A stretch of DNA of 23,313 bases. Origin: a virus. Positions within the stretch are counted from its first letter, which is position 1, and each line of letters starts with the position of its first letter. The stretch is taken from IMG/VR virus record IMGVR_UViG_3300008050_000329, positions 1 through 23,313 of that record; one strand, 5' to 3'. Under the pieces are notes generated by a model, which had not been told where the DNA came from, searched no databases, and was given only the letters and a program-made list of their open reading frames with translations. Below, in pieces: positions 4,549 to 22,268 of the stretch. A program made the translations under genes and the position numbers.

Positions 4549-4631
4549 TGCTCTACTGGTCAAGAATTATTGTGATATGCAGACCCGATATAACTGCTAT
4601 TGCAGTATTTTACATTTTGTTGGTCTGCTGA
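4548..4631 (+). CDS. Tiny hydrophobic peptide, coupled to the previous ORF
   Basis: This 27-codon ORF starts at a TAATG overlap with the preceding tiny ORF. It reads MLYWSRIIVICR, then PDITAIAVFYILLVC to the stop, so it would be a membrane peptide with one C-terminal span and a conspicuous basic residue in the N-terminal half. It has no Shine-Dalgarno of its own and would depend on re-initiation. Its last 35 bases overlap the end of the convergent minus-strand gene. No homologue is recognised. It is kept because the coupling geometry matches the operon; translation is uncertain. Confidence 0.35.
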   Translation: MLYWSRIIVICRPDITAIAVFYILLVC

Positions 4632-5325
4632 AATAACCAAAGTCAGCATCTTTGTCAGACCTTGATAAACGGCAGTCGAATTGCACCGTATCTTCTTTGC
4701 TTACTTCAGATGGGCAAGTTCCCCAAATACGAATGTTGTTTTCTAGTTCAACAATTATTTTATAAGCACCACCAAATTGTGAATCTTTCCAAGCGTAGTA
4801 AACAACTTTTCCTGTTACGGTTGTTCTGTTTGTGCAGTCAAGTTTTTTCCATAGAGCATCGAACTTTTCTTTCTTGTCTGCTTCTGCTTTTACTTCTGCA
4901 TCACGCATTGCTTTTTCTTCTGCAATTCGTTGCTGTGTTTGTTGTTCAATAAGTGCTTGTTCTGCTTCAAGTTTAGCAATTCGCTTTGCTTCTGCTTTTT
5001 CCTCACGGGCAATTCTCTTGATTTTTTGGTCTAATGTTTCGGTTCTAATTTTAAGAATCTGATTCACTAAACGCTTAATGCTTTTCTTGCGTACTTCTCT
5101 TGTTTTTGGGTTTCTACCTTGCTTTGTGCATCGGTAACATTCACCATGAAACTTGCTGTAAATACCTGTTCCACCACAACGCCTGCAACCCGAAACCCAA
5201 ACAGCATAAATTGAATCTTCTGGCAAATAAAGTTTCCACCCTGAACCAATTGTATTGTCAATTCGTTCTAGTTCTTCTGCTGTGAAATCTGATTTCTTTT
5301 CAATTGTTGTTGTTGTGTTTGTCAT
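4597..5325 (-). CDS. Zinc-finger / coiled-coil / OB-like accessory protein
   Basis: This 242-residue protein has three visible parts. Residues 47-66 hold a CxxC-GGTG knuckle and a second CYRC pair (C47, C50, C63, C66), like a DnaJ-type or ribbon zinc site. Residues about 75-162 are a Lys/Glu/Ala-rich coiled coil. Residues about 165-242 resemble the small beta domain of many phage and plasmid accessory proteins: TGKVVYYAWKDSQFGGAYKI, then GTCPSEV, then RSDKDADFGYFSRPTKCKIL. Such a domain could bind nucleic acid, but that is inference. The start is set by AACGAAAGG upstream. It is the second gene of a minus-strand pair between protease and capsid genes and meets the late operon tail to tail. 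Confidence 0.75.
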   Translation of the reverse strand: MTNTTTTIEKKSDFTAEELERIDNTIGSGWKLYLPEDSIYAVWVSGCRRCGGTGIYSKFHGECYRCTKQGRNPKTREVRKKSIKRLVNQILKIRTETLDQKIKRIAREEKAEAKRIAKLEAEQALIEQQTQQRIAEEKAMRDAEVKAEADKKEKFDALWKKLDCTNRTTVTGKVVYYAWKDSQFGGAYKIIVELENNIRIWGTCPSEVSKEDTVQFDCRLSRSDKDADFGYFSRPTKCKILQ

Positions 5326-5356
5326 TTCGTTATGCCTTTCGTTTTGGGGTTGTTAG

Positions 5357-5605
5357 TTATGCTCTAAGTGTGTTAATGTTTTGTGGTGCTTGATACTCTG
5401 ATGAAAAGAACCATGTGCCACTCATAAAGTTTTCACTGTTTTTTGATTGCTTGATTCTTGCTTTCTTTTCTTTTCCGTAAGCAATAAACCAAACTGTTTT
5501 TGCTGTTCTTCTTGTAACTTCTACTGTGTGAATGCAGTTGTAATCTGCAATGCTTCTTGAGTAGTAAACTTTACCTGTTTCAATTTTGTTTGTTGTTGTT
5601 GTCAT
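5357..5605 (-). CDS. Small conserved-type accessory protein (RTAKTV motif)
   Basis: This 82-residue protein reads TGKVYYSRSIADYNCIHTVE followed by VTRRTAKTVWF, a pattern I associate with small phage and plasmid accessory proteins of unknown function; it looks like one compact beta-rich domain. It is the first gene of the minus-strand island, with its promoter just upstream. Two in-frame starts exist. The one used here (MTTTTNK) has AAAAGGAAACGAA in front. An ATG at 5636-5638 would add 11 residues (MTNEQTTKGNE) but lies where transcription should begin, so it would be leaderless. No function can be assigned. Confidence 0.7.
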   Translation of the reverse strand: MTTTTNKIETGKVYYSRSIADYNCIHTVEVTRRTAKTVWFIAYGKEKKARIKQSKNSENFMSGTWFFSSEYQAPQNINTLRA

Positions 5606-5644
5606 TTCGTTTCCTTTTGTTGTTTGTTCGTTTGTCATGCTTTT

Positions 5645-5672
5645 ATTATATCGACCGATTCACGCACCGCAA
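5645..5672 (-). promoter_or_regulatory. Sigma70-type promoter of the minus-strand island
   Basis: Read on the minus strand this is TTGCGG (5667-5672), a 16-bp spacer and a perfect TATAAT (5645-5650). The spacer holds the box GAATCGGTCGAT (plus-strand 5650-5661), also found at the promoter of the right-hand operon. Predicted transcription starts at or next to the ATG at 5638. The -35 element is weak, so activation or operator control is plausible. Confidence 0.65.
5650..5661 (-). promoter_or_regulatory. Shared operator-like box GAATCGGTCGAT (copy 1)
   Basis: This exact 12-mer recurs at 21243-21254. Its core ATCG-GT-CGAT is an inverted repeat, as expected for a dimeric regulator site, and both copies sit immediately upstream of, or one base into, the -10 element. 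A repressor or activator binding here could switch both transcription units together. The regulator itself was not seen in the window. Confidence 0.55.
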
Positions 5673-5752
5673 GACCCTTATTCAATGAAAATGTAGTTTT
5701 TTTTCAATATAGCCCTTTATAGTGCTTTAAGCCCACATAAATCTTTACCCCA

Positions 5753-5780
5753 TTCTGCATTTTTCTTTGCATACTATAAT
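5753..5780 (+). promoter_or_regulatory. Candidate promoter for the capsid gene
   Basis: A perfect TATAAT lies at 5775-5780 with a weak TTCTGC at 5753-5758 (16-bp spacer). The capsid gene needs its own entry point because the minus-strand island separates it from the upstream head operon. The 5639-5862 gap holds no other gene; it contains this promoter, the divergent island promoter and the leader hairpins. Confidence 0.5.
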
Positions 5781-5785
5781 AATAC

Positions 5786-5815
5786 AGCCCGTTGGCTATT
5801 ACTTGCCGTTGCAAG
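5786..5815 (+). other. Two tandem small hairpins in the capsid mRNA leader
   Basis: AGCC-CGTT-GGCT (5786-5797) is followed four bases later by CTTGC-CGTT-GCAAG (5802-5815). Both have the same CGTT loop, and the first begins where transcription from TATAAT would start. Hairpins at the extreme 5' end of an mRNA are known to protect against 5'-dependent decay, which would suit the most heavily expressed phage gene. The stems are short, so this is a tentative reading. Confidence 0.45.
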
Positions 5816-5862: not shown

Positions 5863-7065
5863 ATGTCACAGTCAAAAGAAATGCGTGAGCAACGCTGTAA
5901 ACTAATTGCAGATGCTCGCAAAATTATGGATAGTGCTGAAGTTCTCGATGCTGAACAAAGGTCACAAGTTGATGCAATGCTCAACGACAGTGACACTTTG
6001 AAAAAAGACATCGACAGAATCGAAGCAATCGAAAAAGAAGAACGAGCATTAAAAGCATCAGCAGGAAAAACTGCTGAACTTGAAGTTGCAAAAACAAGCG
6101 AAACAGAAACACGGGCAACTGGCGTTAAGTCAAAAGAATATCGTGATGCTTTCTGGAAGTATATGCGTGAAGGTAAAACAGCATTGAACAATGCAGAACT
6201 TCGTGTAATGGTTGAAGGCACAGGAACAGCAGGTGGTTTCACTGCACCAATGTTTGATGATGGTCAAGCACAACTGCAAGATATGATTATTGAAAAAATG
6301 TCACCTGCTCATAACTTCCTTTCGTATGCAACGCAAATGACTATTGGTGGCGAGATAACCGTGCCAGTCGTTAATGCACAAGGAGATGCTACATGGACTG
6401 CTGAAAATGCAGACGCAACTTTAGCAGACACGACCTTTACACAATTGAAGTTCCAACCGCAGAAGGCAACTCGGATTTGTCAAGTTTCACGGGAACTTTT
6501 AAGTGATAGTTATGTAGATATGCAAAGTTTCTTGGCGGGTGTGTACGCAAAATCTTTCGATGTTTTGCTTAATTCGGCTTTTGTAAACGGTGATGGTTCT
6601 TCAAAACCAGAAGGCGTAACTGACGGAGCAGATACAGGAACAACCGCAAGTTCAGCCACTGCCGTAACTTGGTCAGAATTACAAACGCTCTTTTACAGTT
6701 TGAAAGAATCCTATCGTGCAAACGGTACATGGCTCTTTAATTCAACAACTGCTTCTGCGATTCGTAACCTTACAATTGGTGATGCGGGTTACATTTGGCA
6801 ACCAAGTGGTGCAGTAGGTCAACCAGATACTTTAATGGGCAGACCAGTTGCAATCAATGATGATTGTGAAGCAATGACATCAGGACTTAAACCAATTCTG
6901 TTTGGTGACCTAAGTTACTATTGGGTTACTTGGCGTGAATACATGGATTTCCAACGACTTGATGAACTCTATGCGTTGGCAGGAAATGTAGGACTAAAAG
7001 CAGAACTGCGAGTTGATGGCAAATTGACATCAAGCGAAGCAGTCAAATGTCTAGTTATGGGTTAA
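5863..7065 (+). CDS. Major capsid protein, HK97 fold
   Basis: This 400-residue protein forms the icosahedral shell. Residues 1 to about 90 are a charged coiled coil (MREQRCKLIADARKIMDSAE through DTLKKDIDRIEAIEKEER), the scaffold-like delta domain removed by the prohead protease. The mature part has typical HK97-fold segments: TAGGFTAPMFDDGQAQ (about 122-137), the E-loop region VPVVNAQGDATWTAENADAT (about 157-176), SRELLSDSYVDMQSFLAG, NGDGSSKPEGV, and the C-terminal YWVTWREYMDFQRLDELYA. The start has AGAAGGA upstream. The exact cleavage site cannot be read from sequence. Confidence 0.95.
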   Translation: MSQSKEMREQRCKLIADARKIMDSAEVLDAEQRSQVDAMLNDSDTLKKDIDRIEAIEKEERALKASAGKTAELEVAKTSETETRATGVKSKEYRDAFWKYMREGKTALNNAELRVMVEGTGTAGGFTAPMFDDGQAQLQDMIIEKMSPAHNFLSYATQMTIGGEITVPVVNAQGDATWTAENADATLADTTFTQLKFQPQKATRICQVSRELLSDSYVDMQSFLAGVYAKSFDVLLNSAFVNGDGSSKPEGVTDGADTGTTASSATAVTWSELQTLFYSLKESYRANGTWLFNSTTASAIRNLTIGDAGYIWQPSGAVGQPDTLMGRPVAINDDCEAMTSGLKPILFGDLSYYWVTWREYMDFQRLDELYALAGNVGLKAELRVDGKLTSSEAVKCLVMG

Positions 7066-18241: not shown

Positions 18242-19008
18242 GTGAAGCAGTAAAGTTTGGTGCTATTAGTTGTACGCATTGCCCACACCAAAGTGAACGG
18301 GCAATTGCAAAACTAATTGAAGAATTGAAAATTAGAAAGCCACAGGTCTTTGTGCATTTAGGTGATGTTGTAGATGCAGATGGTGCAAGCGTTCATAGTG
18401 ACGATTCAGATTCAGTTACGTTGCACGATGAGTTTCTTATTGCAAGCGATATGTTGCGAAGGATTCGTGAAGCGTTGCCAGAAGATACTAAACTTGTGAT
18501 GATTGATGGAAACCATGATGACAACATACAGCGACCAGACCCAAGGCGAGTACCGAAAGCGTTACGTTCATTGTGCGACCCAAGGAAGATGCACGGTGTT
18601 GCAGACGAGTTTAAGAGATGGCAAAAAATCCCGTATCGTTTCGGTCGATGCTTTCAACTTGGCGGGGTAATCTTTCATCATGGCTTTGGGGCTTCAGCCA
18701 ACAGCGATGAACTAGAAGCCATACAATTGGCTATGGCGTGTGGCGGTCATGCACATAGGTTGGTTATCCGTGGTCATACGCATCGCCCTGTACCGCCAAC
18801 ACAATGCCGTAGAACAGCCCGTGTGAAATTGCCGTGGTGGTACTGCAACGTGGGTATGATGGCGTTCGAGCAGAAGCCAAGTTACTGCCACAGGTTTGAT
18901 ACGCAACAGTGGGGAAGGAGTGCCTGCTTTGGAACTGCGATAGTAGGTAGACCAGACAGAATCCCCAAGGACAATTGGACGGCAGAACTTGTGGACTTAG
19001 ACAAATGA
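18238..19008 (+). CDS. Calcineurin-like metallophosphoesterase family protein
   Basis: This 256-residue protein has most motifs of dinuclear metallophosphoesterases: GDVVD (residues 42-46), GNHD (91-94), FHHG (146-149) and GHTHR (179-183). The first motif, normally D-x-H, here reads SCTHC (11-15), with Cys12 in the place of the metal-binding aspartate and His14 kept. Activity may be altered or use another ligand. Substrate is unknown; relatives hydrolyse nucleic acids, nucleotides or phosphoproteins. It is near the end of the late operon, coupled by ATGA on both sides, so it is expressed with tail genes. Confidence 0.88.
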   Translation: MSEAVKFGAISCTHCPHQSERAIAKLIEELKIRKPQVFVHLGDVVDADGASVHSDDSDSVTLHDEFLIASDMLRRIREALPEDTKLVMIDGNHDDNIQRPDPRRVPKALRSLCDPRKMHGVADEFKRWQKIPYRFGRCFQLGGVIFHHGFGASANSDELEAIQLAMACGGHAHRLVIRGHTHRPVPPTQCRRTARVKLPWWYCNVGMMAFEQKPSYCHRFDTQQWGRSACFGTAIVGRPDRIPKDNWTAELVDLDK

Positions 19009-19250
19009 AAGTTGCGAAAGTAACTTGGGTGGATGCGGAAACTGTTGGCGATTCTTCTTGGCAAGAACTTGAAGAAGTAATGCAGACAGCAAAAGACCAA
19101 CCGCCTGTAATGCAGACGGTTGGCTTCGTGCTTTGTGAATGTGACACTCACATTTCTATGACGGATTCAGTCGGTGAACAAGAGTGTGGTCATGTCACCA
19201 AAATACCTTTGGCTATGATTCAAGAAGTAGAAGTTTTATTGCTTGATTGA
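19005..19250 (+). CDS. Small acidic protein ending the late operon
   Basis: This 81-residue acidic protein reads MKVAKVTWVDAETVGDSSWQ, then PPVMQTVGFVLCECDTHISM, and ends KIPLAMIQEVEVLLLD. The pattern VTWVD, a mid 'TVGFVL-CECD' strand pair and a final IP-x-x-MI resembles a widespread small phage protein of unknown function with a probable small beta-barrel. It starts at an ATGA overlap with the phosphoesterase. Its last 31 bases overlap, in the opposite direction, the end of the metallopeptidase gene. Confidence 0.75.
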   Translation: MKVAKVTWVDAETVGDSSWQELEEVMQTAKDQPPVMQTVGFVLCECDTHISMTDSVGEQECGHVTKIPLAMIQEVEVLLLD

Positions 19251-20140
19251 CCCTTGGCTTTGCACGCAACTTTTCGTTGATGTGCTTCGCTACGCTTGCG
19301 ACCTGCAACAAGCCGATTAACTTTTGTCTGGTATGACTTCACTTTGCTCTCTGCTTGTTCAAGTTTCTTTTGCCATTTAACTAAGTTCATTTCTGCTAAT
19401 TCAAGTTTTCGATTAGGTGCTTTTCGTTCTGCCTTTGCATTTTCTTTTCGCAGGTTTTTGTTCCTTGCAGTTCTTCGTAACTTGCGATACTTACGCCATA
19501 TCTTTATTTCTTCTTTTGCAAAAGCAGAAACAACTTCACCTGCAATGTTGTCTGTCTTGAACTCCATTGACTGTAATTGCCTTCGTCCGTTCTTATACTT
19601 GGCGTTAGCAAGATTGGTTGTGTGGACTAATTCGTGTGCAATGATATGGCACAAAGATTGCAAGCCAGTTTTAGTTGCATGGTCTTTTGCCCAACTGATT
19701 CCACAATACTTCCAATTCATTCGTGGTGCGTTTCTATCGTGTGCAATGTGAACCCAACTGCCGTCTAACCTTGCTCGTCCGTGACCGCCCCTATTGGTGT
19801 GAACAAATTGCATATTGTAAGTTGATGCTCTGCCACCTTTCTGCTTTAACTCTTTTACTACAAAGTCAATCACAAGTTCAATAAGCGGTGTACACCACAA
19901 TGAAGTGTTGCGTGATAGAAAACGGTACTGGTGACTTTGCCTACCACCAAGGTATTTCGCCTTGTGCTGTTTGTCGATTGCCCTTGCTTGCTTTCTTCGC
20001 ATTCTAGTTTTGCGTTCGCTCCACAATTCTGCCCAGTGGTATTCAGGTGTGTCAACAGGTTTGCCTGTACCATTTTGGTAATCGCTGACATATCCCGCTT
20101 TCAATTTGATTCGTTTGATTGTTTCTAGGTATGGTTTCAT
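19220..20140 (-). CDS. SprT/zincin-like metallopeptidase with basic coiled-coil tail
   Basis: This 306-residue protein contains SLCHIIAHELVHTTNLANA with the zinc motif HELVH at residues 169-173; the third ligand is probably Glu193 or Glu202. Residues 1-75 are basic. Residues about 205-300 are a very Lys/Arg-rich coiled coil that could bind nucleic acid or a partner. The general layout recalls SprT-like zincins, which act on DNA-bound proteins, but the substrate is unknown. It is the last gene of a four-gene minus-strand operon, with a one-base gap after the previous stop; CGAAAGG sits within that gene's last codons. Confidence 0.78.
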   Translation of the reverse strand: MKPYLETIKRIKLKAGYVSDYQNGTGKPVDTPEYHWAELWSERKTRMRRKQARAIDKQHKAKYLGGRQSHQYRFLSRNTSLWCTPLIELVIDFVVKELKQKGGRASTYNMQFVHTNRGGHGRARLDGSWVHIAHDRNAPRMNWKYCGISWAKDHATKTGLQSLCHIIAHELVHTTNLANAKYKNGRRQLQSMEFKTDNIAGEVVSAFAKEEIKIWRKYRKLRRTARNKNLRKENAKAERKAPNRKLELAEMNLVKWQKKLEQAESKVKSYQTKVNRLVAGRKRSEAHQRKVACKAKGQSSNKTSTS

Positions 20141-20141
20141 T

Positions 20142-20360
20142 TCAGTTTGCCTTTCGTTTTTGAATGAGTGGTAAGTATCGTTTGACTGTTCTGTTGCTAC
20201 TGGTCTTTTCTATGTACTCGCAAAGCAACGGTGTTCCTTCGTGAGCGTGATTGTTTGCAAGTATGATTGCTTGCGACTTGCAGTACAACTTGTTGCCAGT
20301 GCCGATGACTTCTGTGTTGCCAGTTAATGCTACTGCTTGTTCTTCTGTAATGATTTTCAT
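20142..20360 (-). CDS. Small accessory protein of unknown function
   Basis: This 72-residue protein begins MKIITEEQAVALTGNTEVIG and has LYCKSQAIILANNHAHEGTP. It is mixed alpha/beta with a basic C-terminus, with no recognised family. It starts at an ATGA overlap with the preceding minus-strand gene and uses GAAAGG within that gene's last codons. Its own last codons (KRKAN) encode the ribosome site of the metallopeptidase gene, so the two are tightly linked. Confidence 0.7.
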   Translation of the reverse strand: MKIITEEQAVALTGNTEVIGTGNKLYCKSQAIILANNHAHEGTPLLCEYIEKTSSNRTVKRYLPLIQKRKAN

Positions 20361-20764
20361 TGTTGTACTTTCCTTTCTAATTCAGCAAGCCGAGTATTTT
20401 CTTCAAAGGTTGTTGTTTCAAACTGTGCAAAGTGTTCTGCAACTTTTACAAAACCCTTCAAAGATAATTCTTGCCACTGGTTAAAGTTTGGGTTCAAGGA
20501 CTTACTGCCATGACCGTGTGCATTTTTAGGTTCACCACATAGTTTTACAATAGTTTCTTCATGCCCAAAACCACCGTTTGTAAAGCCAACTTGAAAGCAT
20601 GACCTTCGACCATTTAGAATCTCAAACTCTTTTTGCCAGTGTTTTTCTTTTGCTACTTCAAAAATTGCATTTCCTGTGTCTGCATCAAAAATAGTAACCA
20701 CTGTTCCATTGCACCCTTGTCGTTTTGTTGTACTGATTTTTCTAAACTTTGTTGGATGTTGCAT
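20357..20764 (-). CDS. Accessory protein of unknown function
   Basis: This 135-residue protein is not recognised. It has FRKISTTKRQGCNGTVVTIF, an INEXACT zinc-poor beta-rich N-terminal half, and a run GRRSCFQVGFTNGGFGHEET with several His and Gly residues (about 52-71), then a helical acidic end. No catalytic triad or zinc knuckle can be assigned safely. AACGAAAGGTAAGAACA precedes the start, identical to the leader of the upstream gene 20814-21047. It overlaps the next gene as ATGA, so all four minus-strand genes form one operon. Confidence 0.68.
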   Translation of the reverse strand: MQHPTKFRKISTTKRQGCNGTVVTIFDADTGNAIFEVAKEKHWQKEFEILNGRRSCFQVGFTNGGFGHEETIVKLCGEPKNAHGHGSKSLNPNFNQWQELSLKGFVKVAEHFAQFETTTFEENTRLAELERKVQQ

Positions 20765-20782
20765 TGTTCTTACCTTTCGTTT
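20762..20782 (-). repeat. 21-bp exact leader repeat, copy 1
   Basis: The 21 bases at 20762-20782, from the start codon back through the ribosome site, are identical to 21045-21065. The core, read on the coding strand, is AAACGAAAGG eight bases before ATG. The same core precedes 20140, 5325 and 21315, so it is a recurring translation-initiation cassette of the accessory genes. Confidence 0.8.
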
Positions 20783-20813
20783 TTGCCCTGTGGCGTTGTT
20801 TGTTTGTTTACTG

Positions 20814-21047
20814 TTATTTTATTTCCCAAGCACCATCGCTTTGAACAGTGATTGATTTATTTATTGAAGCCGTTCCATTTATGTTTTGCAATTTCAATTT
20901 GCCATTTCTCCAACTCATGCCAACAGTTTCTTTTAGCCAACCATCGTATTTAATCCATTCAGTTGAAACCCAAGTTAGTGAAATTGCTTTGTAACCTTTG
21001 GCTTTGATTTCTTTGTTTACTGTTCTTAGTATTTCTGTCTTATTCAT
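20814..21047 (-). CDS. Small accessory protein, first gene of the minus-strand operon
   Basis: This 77-residue protein begins MNKTEILRTVNKEIKAKGYK and has TWVSTEWIKYDGWLKETVGM, then a beta-rich end. The start at 21047 is preferred over an in-frame ATG at 21095 because AAACGAAAGGTAAGAACA lies directly before it, identical to the next gene's leader. No family is recognised. As promoter-proximal gene beside the divergent control region it is likely expressed early. The 49-bp gap to the next gene holds only its leader. Confidence 0.65.
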   Translation of the reverse strand: MNKTEILRTVNKEIKAKGYKAISLTWVSTEWIKYDGWLKETVGMSWRNGKLKLQNINGTASINKSITVQSDGAWEIK

Positions 21048-21065
21048 TGTTCTTACCTTTCGTTT
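21045..21065 (-). repeat. 21-bp exact leader repeat, copy 2
   Basis: Second copy of the 21-bp initiation cassette found at 20762-20782, fixing the start of the 77-residue gene at 21047. Coding identity stops at the ATG: the two proteins share no visible sequence, so the leader alone was copied or conserved. Confidence 0.8.
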
Positions 21066-21093
21066 AAGCCAGAACCATTTCTGACTTGCTTTC

Positions 21094-21121
21094 ATTATTA
21101 CTATTATTCGTCACCTTGCAA
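21094..21121 (-). promoter_or_regulatory. Candidate promoter of the minus-strand operon
   Basis: On the minus strand TTGCAA (21116-21121), a 16-bp spacer and AATAAT (21094-21099) give a plausible sigma70-type promoter about 47 bases before the first start codon. An alternative is GATAAT further upstream near 21166-21171, with ATCG and CGAT half-sites 7 bases apart. Neither is strong. Confidence 0.35.
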
Positions 21122-21230
21122 CCCATATCTTCACTTATTTTATGTTTTTTTCATTTTATTCCATTATCGCCCCTCACGATACCAAGAACAGCGATATTGA
21201 AAAAAGAATGATTTTGTGCATATTACTGTG

Positions 21231-21260
21231 TTGACAGAAGCGGAATCGGTCGATTATACT
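21231..21260 (+). promoter_or_regulatory. Near-consensus promoter of the right-hand operon
   Basis: TTGACA (21231-21236), an 18-bp spacer and TATACT (21255-21260) give one of the best sigma70-type promoters in the window. It drives the ArdC-like gene and the coupled small genes to its right. It implies transcription by host RNA polymerase soon after entry. Confidence 0.78.
21243..21254 (+). promoter_or_regulatory. Shared operator-like box GAATCGGTCGAT (copy 2)
   Basis: Exact copy of the 12-mer at 5650-5661 (opposite strand), directly abutting the -10 element. The inverted-repeat core ATCG-GT-CGAT fits a dimeric DNA-binding protein that would block or assist polymerase at both promoters. Confidence 0.6.
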
Positions 21261-21314
21261 TCTGGAAGTCAGGCGACGAGCATGACACAAACAAACAAAC
21301 GAAAGGCAAACAAG

Positions 21315-22268
21315 ATGAAAAACACAAACACAAAACAAAAAACAAAAAAAGCAAAACGAGATTTATATGCAGAAATTACTGACAGAGTAATTGCATCACT
21401 TGAAGAAGGCAGAGTTCCTTGGGAAATGCCTTGGTCTTGTGCAGGTGCAAGAGGATTTGCACGAAGCGTTAGCACTGGTAAAGTTTACACAGGTGTTAAT
21501 CAGTTGCTTCTTTCAATGAGTGGCTATGCTTCACCTTGGTGGATGACTTACAAACAAGCAACAGAACTTGAAGGCGTAGTACGAAAAGGCGAAAAGGCAA
21601 CAACAGTTGTATTCTGGAAGTTCATCGAAGAAGTAGACAAAGATACAAAGAAAAAAACTGGCAAGCGAATACCAATACTTCGCCACTTCAATGTGTTCAA
21701 TGCTGAACAGTGTGAACTACCAGAAGAAGCAGTGGCAAAACTTGAAAAGCGATTAGAAAAAGTTGCACCAATGAAAGTTGTAAATGAAAACGAAGTAATC
21801 GAAGAAGCACAAATGATTTCAGACAATTACTTAACCCGTGAAGAAATCAAACTTTCGCACGGTGGCGATTCAGCACACTACACACCTGCACTTGATTCAA
21901 TCACCATGCCAACAATGGAATCATTTAAGTCAAGCAACCATTACTACACAACTTTGTTTCACGAAGAAGTACACAGCACTGGACACAGCAAGCGTTTGAA
22001 CCGTGGTCTTGACACAAACAAAGAGAACGTGCAGTTTGGTTCTGGTTCTTACTGCCGTGAAGAACTTGTTGCTGAAATGGGTGCTTCGTTCCTTTGTGGC
22101 TTAACAGGAATTGCAAACAAGTCAATTGATGTAAACCGAAACAGTTACATCAAAGGGTTTTTGAAACTACTAAAAGAAGATAAGAGAGCCATCATAGTTG
22201 CATCAGGAAAGGCAAGCAAAGCGGTTGAGTTAATTACTGGCTTGCCAACTGAAGGCGATGTAGAATAA
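21315..22268 (+). CDS. ArdC-like antirestriction / ssDNA-binding zincin protein
   Basis: This 317-residue protein matches ArdC-type proteins, encoded by plasmids and phages, that protect incoming DNA from restriction. The N-terminal ssDNA-binding part shows LYAEITDRVIASLEEGRVPW, YTGVNQLLLSMSGYASPWW and the KGEKATTVVFWK strand (residues 17-103). The C-terminal zincin has FHEEVHSTGHSKRLNR with HEEVH at 216-220 and a third-ligand region YCREELVAEMGASFLC (E250 or E254). Length is close to ArdC. AACGAAAGGCAAACAAG fixes the ATG at 21315; an in-frame ATG at 21282 would add 11 residues. It is the first gene of the right operon, fitting early defence. Confidence 0.87.
   Translation: MKNTNTKQKTKKAKRDLYAEITDRVIASLEEGRVPWEMPWSCAGARGFARSVSTGKVYTGVNQLLLSMSGYASPWWMTYKQATELEGVVRKGEKATTVVFWKFIEEVDKDTKKKTGKRIPILRHFNVFNAEQCELPEEAVAKLEKRLEKVAPMKVVNENEVIEEAQMISDNYLTREEIKLSHGGDSAHYTPALDSITMPTMESFKSSNHYYTTLFHEEVHSTGHSKRLNRGLDTNKENVQFGSGSYCREELVAEMGASFLCGLTGIANKSIDVNRNSYIKGFLKLLKEDKRAIIVASGKASKAVELITGLPTEGDVE

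Follow-up and report, generated by a model that had tools for sequence, protein, structure and literature searches.

The stretch of DNA analyzed here (the window) is an entire virus record of 23,313 bases, and features on both of its strands are given in window positions. Because larger related records reach 30-36 kb, part of the genome is probably missing. The left part of the window holds a siphovirus-like structural cluster that includes terminase, portal, protease, capsid, and tail genes. Between the protease and capsid genes sits a minus-strand island of two genes (4597-5638), and from the strand layout its promoter drives transcription opposite to that of the late structural (protease/capsid) operon. 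The right side holds a minus-strand unit (19220-21095) and, after it, a plus-strand operon that starts with an ArdC-like gene and continues to the start of a Sak4-like recombinase gene (approximately 23250) at the end of the record. The promoters, leaders, and leading genes of the island and of the right-hand operon are listed in Table 1.

Table 1. Promoter and leader elements of the island and the right-hand operon, with the genes that they precede (window positions)
Feature	Position	Strand	Details
Island second gene, 242 aa	4597..5325	-	95% identical protein in G002
Island first gene	5357..5605	-	within segment 5341-5760, unrelated to G002
Left leader, 38 nt through ATG	5603..5640	-	no hairpin predicted
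Island (left) promoter, TTGCGG-16-TATAAT	5645..5672	-	inside 31 bases identical to G001 early promoter
Box GAATCGGTCGAT, left copy	5650..5661	-	offset 1 bp versus -10 relative to right copy
Upstream block U ATATTGAAAAAA, left copy	5699..5710	-	49 bp upstream of box
Upstream block U ATATTGAAAAAA, right copy, 49 bp before box	21194..21205	+	one of two window copies, equal spacing
Right (main early) promoter, TTGACA-18-TATACT	21231..21260	+	11/12 consensus match, best of the region
Box GAATCGGTCGAT, right copy, in -35/-10 spacer	21243..21254	+	one of two window copies; also in G001 early promoter
Predicted 5'-terminal leader hairpin, GTCAGGC-GACGA-GCATGAC	21268..21286	+	-7.2 kcal/mol, z -2.6
Right leader, 38 nt through ATG	21280..21317	+	gapless alignment with left leader
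Right operon first gene, ArdC-like anti-restriction protein	21315..22268	+	ArdcN and zincin metallopeptidase; Pfam PF08401 2e-37, PF18818 2e-34; phrog_7245 anti-restriction

An earlier note on this DNA had proposed that the two units share a 12-mer box next to the -10 element, GAATCGGTCGAT, and an 8-mer, GCATGACA. Both sequences are indeed found there, and each occurs exactly twice in the record, the box in the two promoters and the 8-mer at 21280 (+) and 5640 (-). The same is true of ATATTGAAAAAA, a second block (U) that lies 49 bp upstream of the box at both promoters. When one mismatch is allowed, ATCGGTCGAT has three matches in the window versus 0.25 expected (0 of 100 shuffles). Of these, the one at 18640 is inside a gene, and no further box-like site was found in the window at this threshold. 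The local alignment score for the promoter part alone was reached in four of 20,000 dinucleotide shuffles. Across the box and block U the two promoters are identical at 24 of 24 positions, whereas the 37 bp between these blocks match at only 12, which is about the random level (gapless comparison; Fisher 2e-8). Two co-spaced 12-mers of this kind appeared in none of 20,000 Markov-simulated pairs, a figure to be read with the knowledge that block U is A-rich and was found post hoc. Two perfect islands within randomized DNA would not be expected from the neutral descent of a copy, and therefore both blocks look as if they have been kept by selection.

The position of the box also provides useful information. 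The spacers differ in length (16 and 18 bp), and relative to the -10 element the position of the box differs by 1 bp between the two promoters; the box is therefore not simply an extended -10 motif. The palindrome that had been proposed as the core of a regulator site is present as 4-bp arms around GT only, and its symmetry is read from identical copies, which lend it no independent support.

The leaders of the two units are less distinctive. As the earlier note had claimed, the distance from GCATGACA to the ATG, start codon included, is 38 nt in both, and the leaders align without gaps (25 of 38 positions identical). However, other pairs of gene starts in the window reach 26-27 of 38, and thus the similarity of these two leaders is not special. 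It mostly reflects the ordinary gene-start and ribosome-binding-site context of the group (AACGAAAGG). Furthermore, the predicted hairpin of the right-hand transcript begins about 7 nt past the -10 element, near +1, and its 3' arm lies within GCATGACA, whereas folding predicts no hairpin for the transcript of the left unit. The shared 8-mer therefore belongs to two different leader forms. A corresponding hairpin (GTCAAGC-AACGA-GTTTGAC) occupies the same place at the right-hand promoter of a relative, G003, and similarly placed hairpins with differing stems are found at the island of another relative, G002, and at the leftward units of both the window and G003. These predicted early-leader hairpins have stems of 7-9 bp located about 7 nt after the -10 element (window 21066-21087, minus strand; G003 20022, minus strand, and 20212, plus strand, in L110/L111; G002 island leader in L094), with recurrent AUGG or RACGA loops and stem differences that are compensating. 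A leaderless start at a conserved in-frame upstream ATG was also considered and was set aside, as the frame is kept in both window leaders and in G001 but is lost in G003.

Comparisons with related phages provide an independent view of the box. G001 (L025; 30,281 bp) is colinear with the window and encodes proteins that are 60-67% identical to those of the window (TerL 61%, portal 67%), and it carries no island. It has one exact match to the box, within TTGCGGTGCGTGAATCGGTCGATATAATAAA, which is identical at 31 of 31 positions to the island promoter of the window; similarity falls sharply upstream of the -35 element. This copy precedes the main early operon of G001, and so it is the counterpart of the right-hand promoter of the window. 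The first genes downstream of the box promoters in the window and in G001 are unrelated. G001 also has GATATTGCAA, and its ATATTG begins 50 bp upstream of the box. A pattern combining the box and the -10 element was present in 81 of approximately 2.9 million viral contigs, one of which is L025; the other matches have unrelated flanks, and only L025 resembles the promoter plus leader. A search with a leader pattern likewise recovered L025 alone. The claim of a duplicated promoter-operator module is thus well supported, both by the two co-spaced blocks and by the box in the identical 31-bp promoter of G001.

Other searches were less productive. TerL is about 40% identical at best in isolates, and thus there is no close isolate phage. 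No nucleotide match to the window was found among GenBank phages, in which the promoters gave nothing but weak matches to the AC-rich leader. Searches with the ArdC protein and with a 77-aa gene of the minus-strand unit yielded no new relatives, and Rfam gave no match at the gathering threshold.

G002 and G003 are closer relatives as judged by terminase, yet the box is missing from their corresponding promoters. Their island promoters have the form ATTGGACGATATATTAC, and the right-hand promoter of G003 carries no box although its leader hairpin is placed as in the window. The earlier note had stated that its proposal would suffer if the box were common at random sites and absent from the same promoters in relatives. 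The box is not common, occurring only twice in the window, and it is kept in G001, but it is missing from G002 and G003. What is seen of the suggested phage-wide switch is the same box at two promoters; a phage-wide breadth is so far unsupported, given that these are the only sites known in an incomplete genome, that no regulator was found, and that these relatives carry no box at the matching positions. Among 35 relatives' loci searched with up to two mismatches to the 12-mer, matches were scattered, and none outside G001 were promoter-like. An early promoter of G024 (L144:11040-11062, plus strand) includes an inverted repeat with 9-bp arms, GGCATATTC-A-GAATATGCC, that immediately precedes its -10 element; the leader that follows resembles that of the G003 island. 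This palindrome was evaluated as a second duplicated operator and was rejected because it is single-copy in its record.

The boundaries between similar and dissimilar DNA are instructive. The window is 89% identical to G002 at the nucleotide level up to approximately 5340, and homology returns at approximately 5761. The segment that has been replaced is precisely the island promoter and the first gene, and it now bears the box of the right-hand operon. On the right side, the 77-aa gene has the opposite orientation to that in G003 (with 87% nucleotide identity), and the boundary falls in the repeated leader. This gene (20814-21064, minus strand) belongs to the minus-strand unit in the window, whereas its G003 counterpart is encoded on the plus strand, behind the main early promoter. 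Promoters and first genes thus appear to have been exchanged as units, and in this way both window promoters seem to have come to carry one box. A broader proposal, which is tentative and on balance doubtful, is that this uncultured siphovirus lineage swaps its early promoters as cassettes with interchangeable operators. A new operator type would then be adopted by separate accessory units as well (G002 and G003 versus the window and G001 versus the G024 palindrome), while the -10 elements and the 5'-terminal leader hairpins would persist. If true, such cassettes would offer a visible series of concerted changes in operator specificity.

Taken together, the data make it reasonably probable that one operator was acquired by both early promoters and that a single DNA-binding protein regulates them jointly, probably by repression. 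Both units would be transcribed early from sigma-70-type promoters, each with the common operator GAATCGGTCGAT within the -35/-10 spacer and the second conserved block ATATTGAAAAAA upstream. A single trans-acting protein, either encoded by the phage in the unsequenced part of its genome or supplied by the host, would bind the box and control both promoters. Repression is the most likely outcome because the box overlaps the RNA polymerase contacts between -35 and -10. A plausible purpose would be the silencing of the early operon, and of the antisense island as well, when transcription of the late structural genes facing that island has begun. The modules themselves may have arisen through the copying or exchange of promoter-leader cassettes.

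The earlier note had suggested searching for the box near -10 elements beside a helix-turn-helix (HTH) gene. The early promoter of G001 has the box near its -10 element, but no recognizable HTH repressor accompanies it among the G001 early proteins scanned, which were most of them; the only Pfam match of this kind was a MerR_2 fragment with an E-value of 0.04. Similarly, no repressor or Cro-type HTH gene is located beside either promoter of the window, where the neighbors encode ArdC, capsid, and small proteins. As a separate observation, G001 carries a gene (L092:1979-2488, minus strand) for a conserved 169-aa protein with relatives in G003, G004, G010, G014, G016, and G024. For its AlphaFold model (pLDDT 76), most of the top structural matches are to sigma-factor region 2, with Z 5.4-7.9 and no significant Foldseek E-value. 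This protein, which lies outside the sequenced part of the window's genome, could possibly be a phage sigma factor.

Several alternatives to co-regulation by a dedicated protein must be weighed. Identical 12-mer pairs are not rare across the window, where 230 occur in either orientation, and so one might suspect that two unrelated promoters share sequence by coincidence. This is extremely improbable and can be treated as refuted for practical purposes, given the outcome of the simulations of co-spaced 12-mers, an AGCATGACA equidistant from the ATG in both units, and the independent copy of the box in G001. A host regulator might instead recognize the box, and the phage would thereby place both early units under the control of a host signal. 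The only cellular matches are distant (33% TerL in two Spirochaetae MAGs), and this explanation seems improbable, despite the lack of a recognizable HTH repressor in 30 kb of sequenced G001 DNA and the presence of other sequences at this position in other lineages, such as the 19-bp palindrome of G024.

It is also conceivable, although less likely, that no dedicated regulator is involved and that a single strong promoter of the host type was copied to give both modules. In that case, the box would act as a spacer motif or an extended -10, with U as an A-rich upstream element, both being promoter parts preferred by the host RNA polymerase. Elements resembling CGATATAAT at -10 do recur in the noncoding DNA of the group (eight in 40 kb versus 10 in 414 kb of coding DNA), and ATYGGWCGATATAWTA is common to the left promoter and the island promoters of G002 and G003. 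Moreover, five promoters have a U-like element 61-62 bp above the -10 element, although the motif was fitted to those same five. However, the sequence of the box stays constant despite its 1-bp shift and the 2-bp difference between the spacers, and the full GAATCGGT half is missing from related promoters that retain the -10 element. UP elements usually lie nearer to the promoter than block U does, and its position above their usual range is another point against this explanation.

The arrangement at these promoters is of a known kind, namely the dispersed operators of a phage regulon, whereas the sequence is new. The hallmark of such operators is a short site repeated at no fewer than two promoters in a genome, and exactly two copies are present here; the site is also kept at the matching promoter of one relative, G001, but not in G002 or G003. 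In phage lambda, the duplicated operators OL and OR overlap the promoters of two distant early units, and the window likewise has two far-apart early units with one operator sequence overlapping their promoters. Unlike lambda, there is one box per promoter, no cI- or Cro-like gene was found, and no lysogeny module was recognized in the parts examined. Operators of the MerR type are palindromes in long spacers of 19-20 bp, and the spacers here, at 16 and 18 bp, do not reach the length that MerR-type activation requires. In the promoter early stem-loops (PeSLs) of T4-like phages, a stem-loop lies directly upstream of each early promoter. PeSLs (cited in PMC4503421) resemble the modules here in being repeated early-promoter cassettes before exchangeable accessory genes, with genes replaced at cassette boundaries. 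They differ in that the hairpins here are located at the transcript start, with only the right promoter of the two having one, and in that the modules described here have an added shared box, of which two copies are known. The stoperators of Cluster A mycobacteriophages are asymmetric, one-directional sites that number 24-34 per genome and have a known repressor (PMC3029335). Like these operators and stoperators, the sites compared here are short, intergenic, and different among related phages, as expected of different regulatory specificities (PMC3029335), but there are only two of them in 23 kb, and they lie within promoters. Among the start-associated sequences (SAS and ESAS) of Cluster K mycobacteriophages, SAS is a 13-bp element found at many gene starts (PMC3203893). 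The AACGAAAGG leaders of the window resemble these short sequences repeated upstream of the starts of unrelated genes (PMC3203893), whereas the box is located within the promoter, before the transcript begins.

If interpreted correctly, two gene units that are far apart are probably switched on and off together by one putative regulator. The box offers a defined and testable candidate regulatory site for a phage lineage that has no cultured member, and an accessory island placed in opposition to the late operon has its promoter module in common with the main early operon. Comparing the promoters of the window, G001, G002, G003, and G024 could also help to address how operator specificity is altered simultaneously at multiple promoters of a phage.

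Some additional features were noted in the capsid region. At 5773-5815 (plus strand), the major capsid gene is provided with a promoter-like ACTATAAT of its own and, after it, two short hairpins in tandem, each with a CGTT loop (AGCC-CGTT-GGCT and CTTGC-CGTT-GCAAG). No Rfam match was obtained for these hairpins at the gathering threshold. Both hairpins are retained in every one of the nine records compared, where 81 of 81 pair cells are standard pairs (86% in shuffles) and five of the nine pairs have changed on both sides. The capsid protein (5863-7065, plus strand) is 67% identical to that of G010 versus 57-58% to those of G002 and G003, whereas the terminase and portal proteins are close to those of G002 and G003, and from these sequence comparisons an exchange of the capsid gene is likely.
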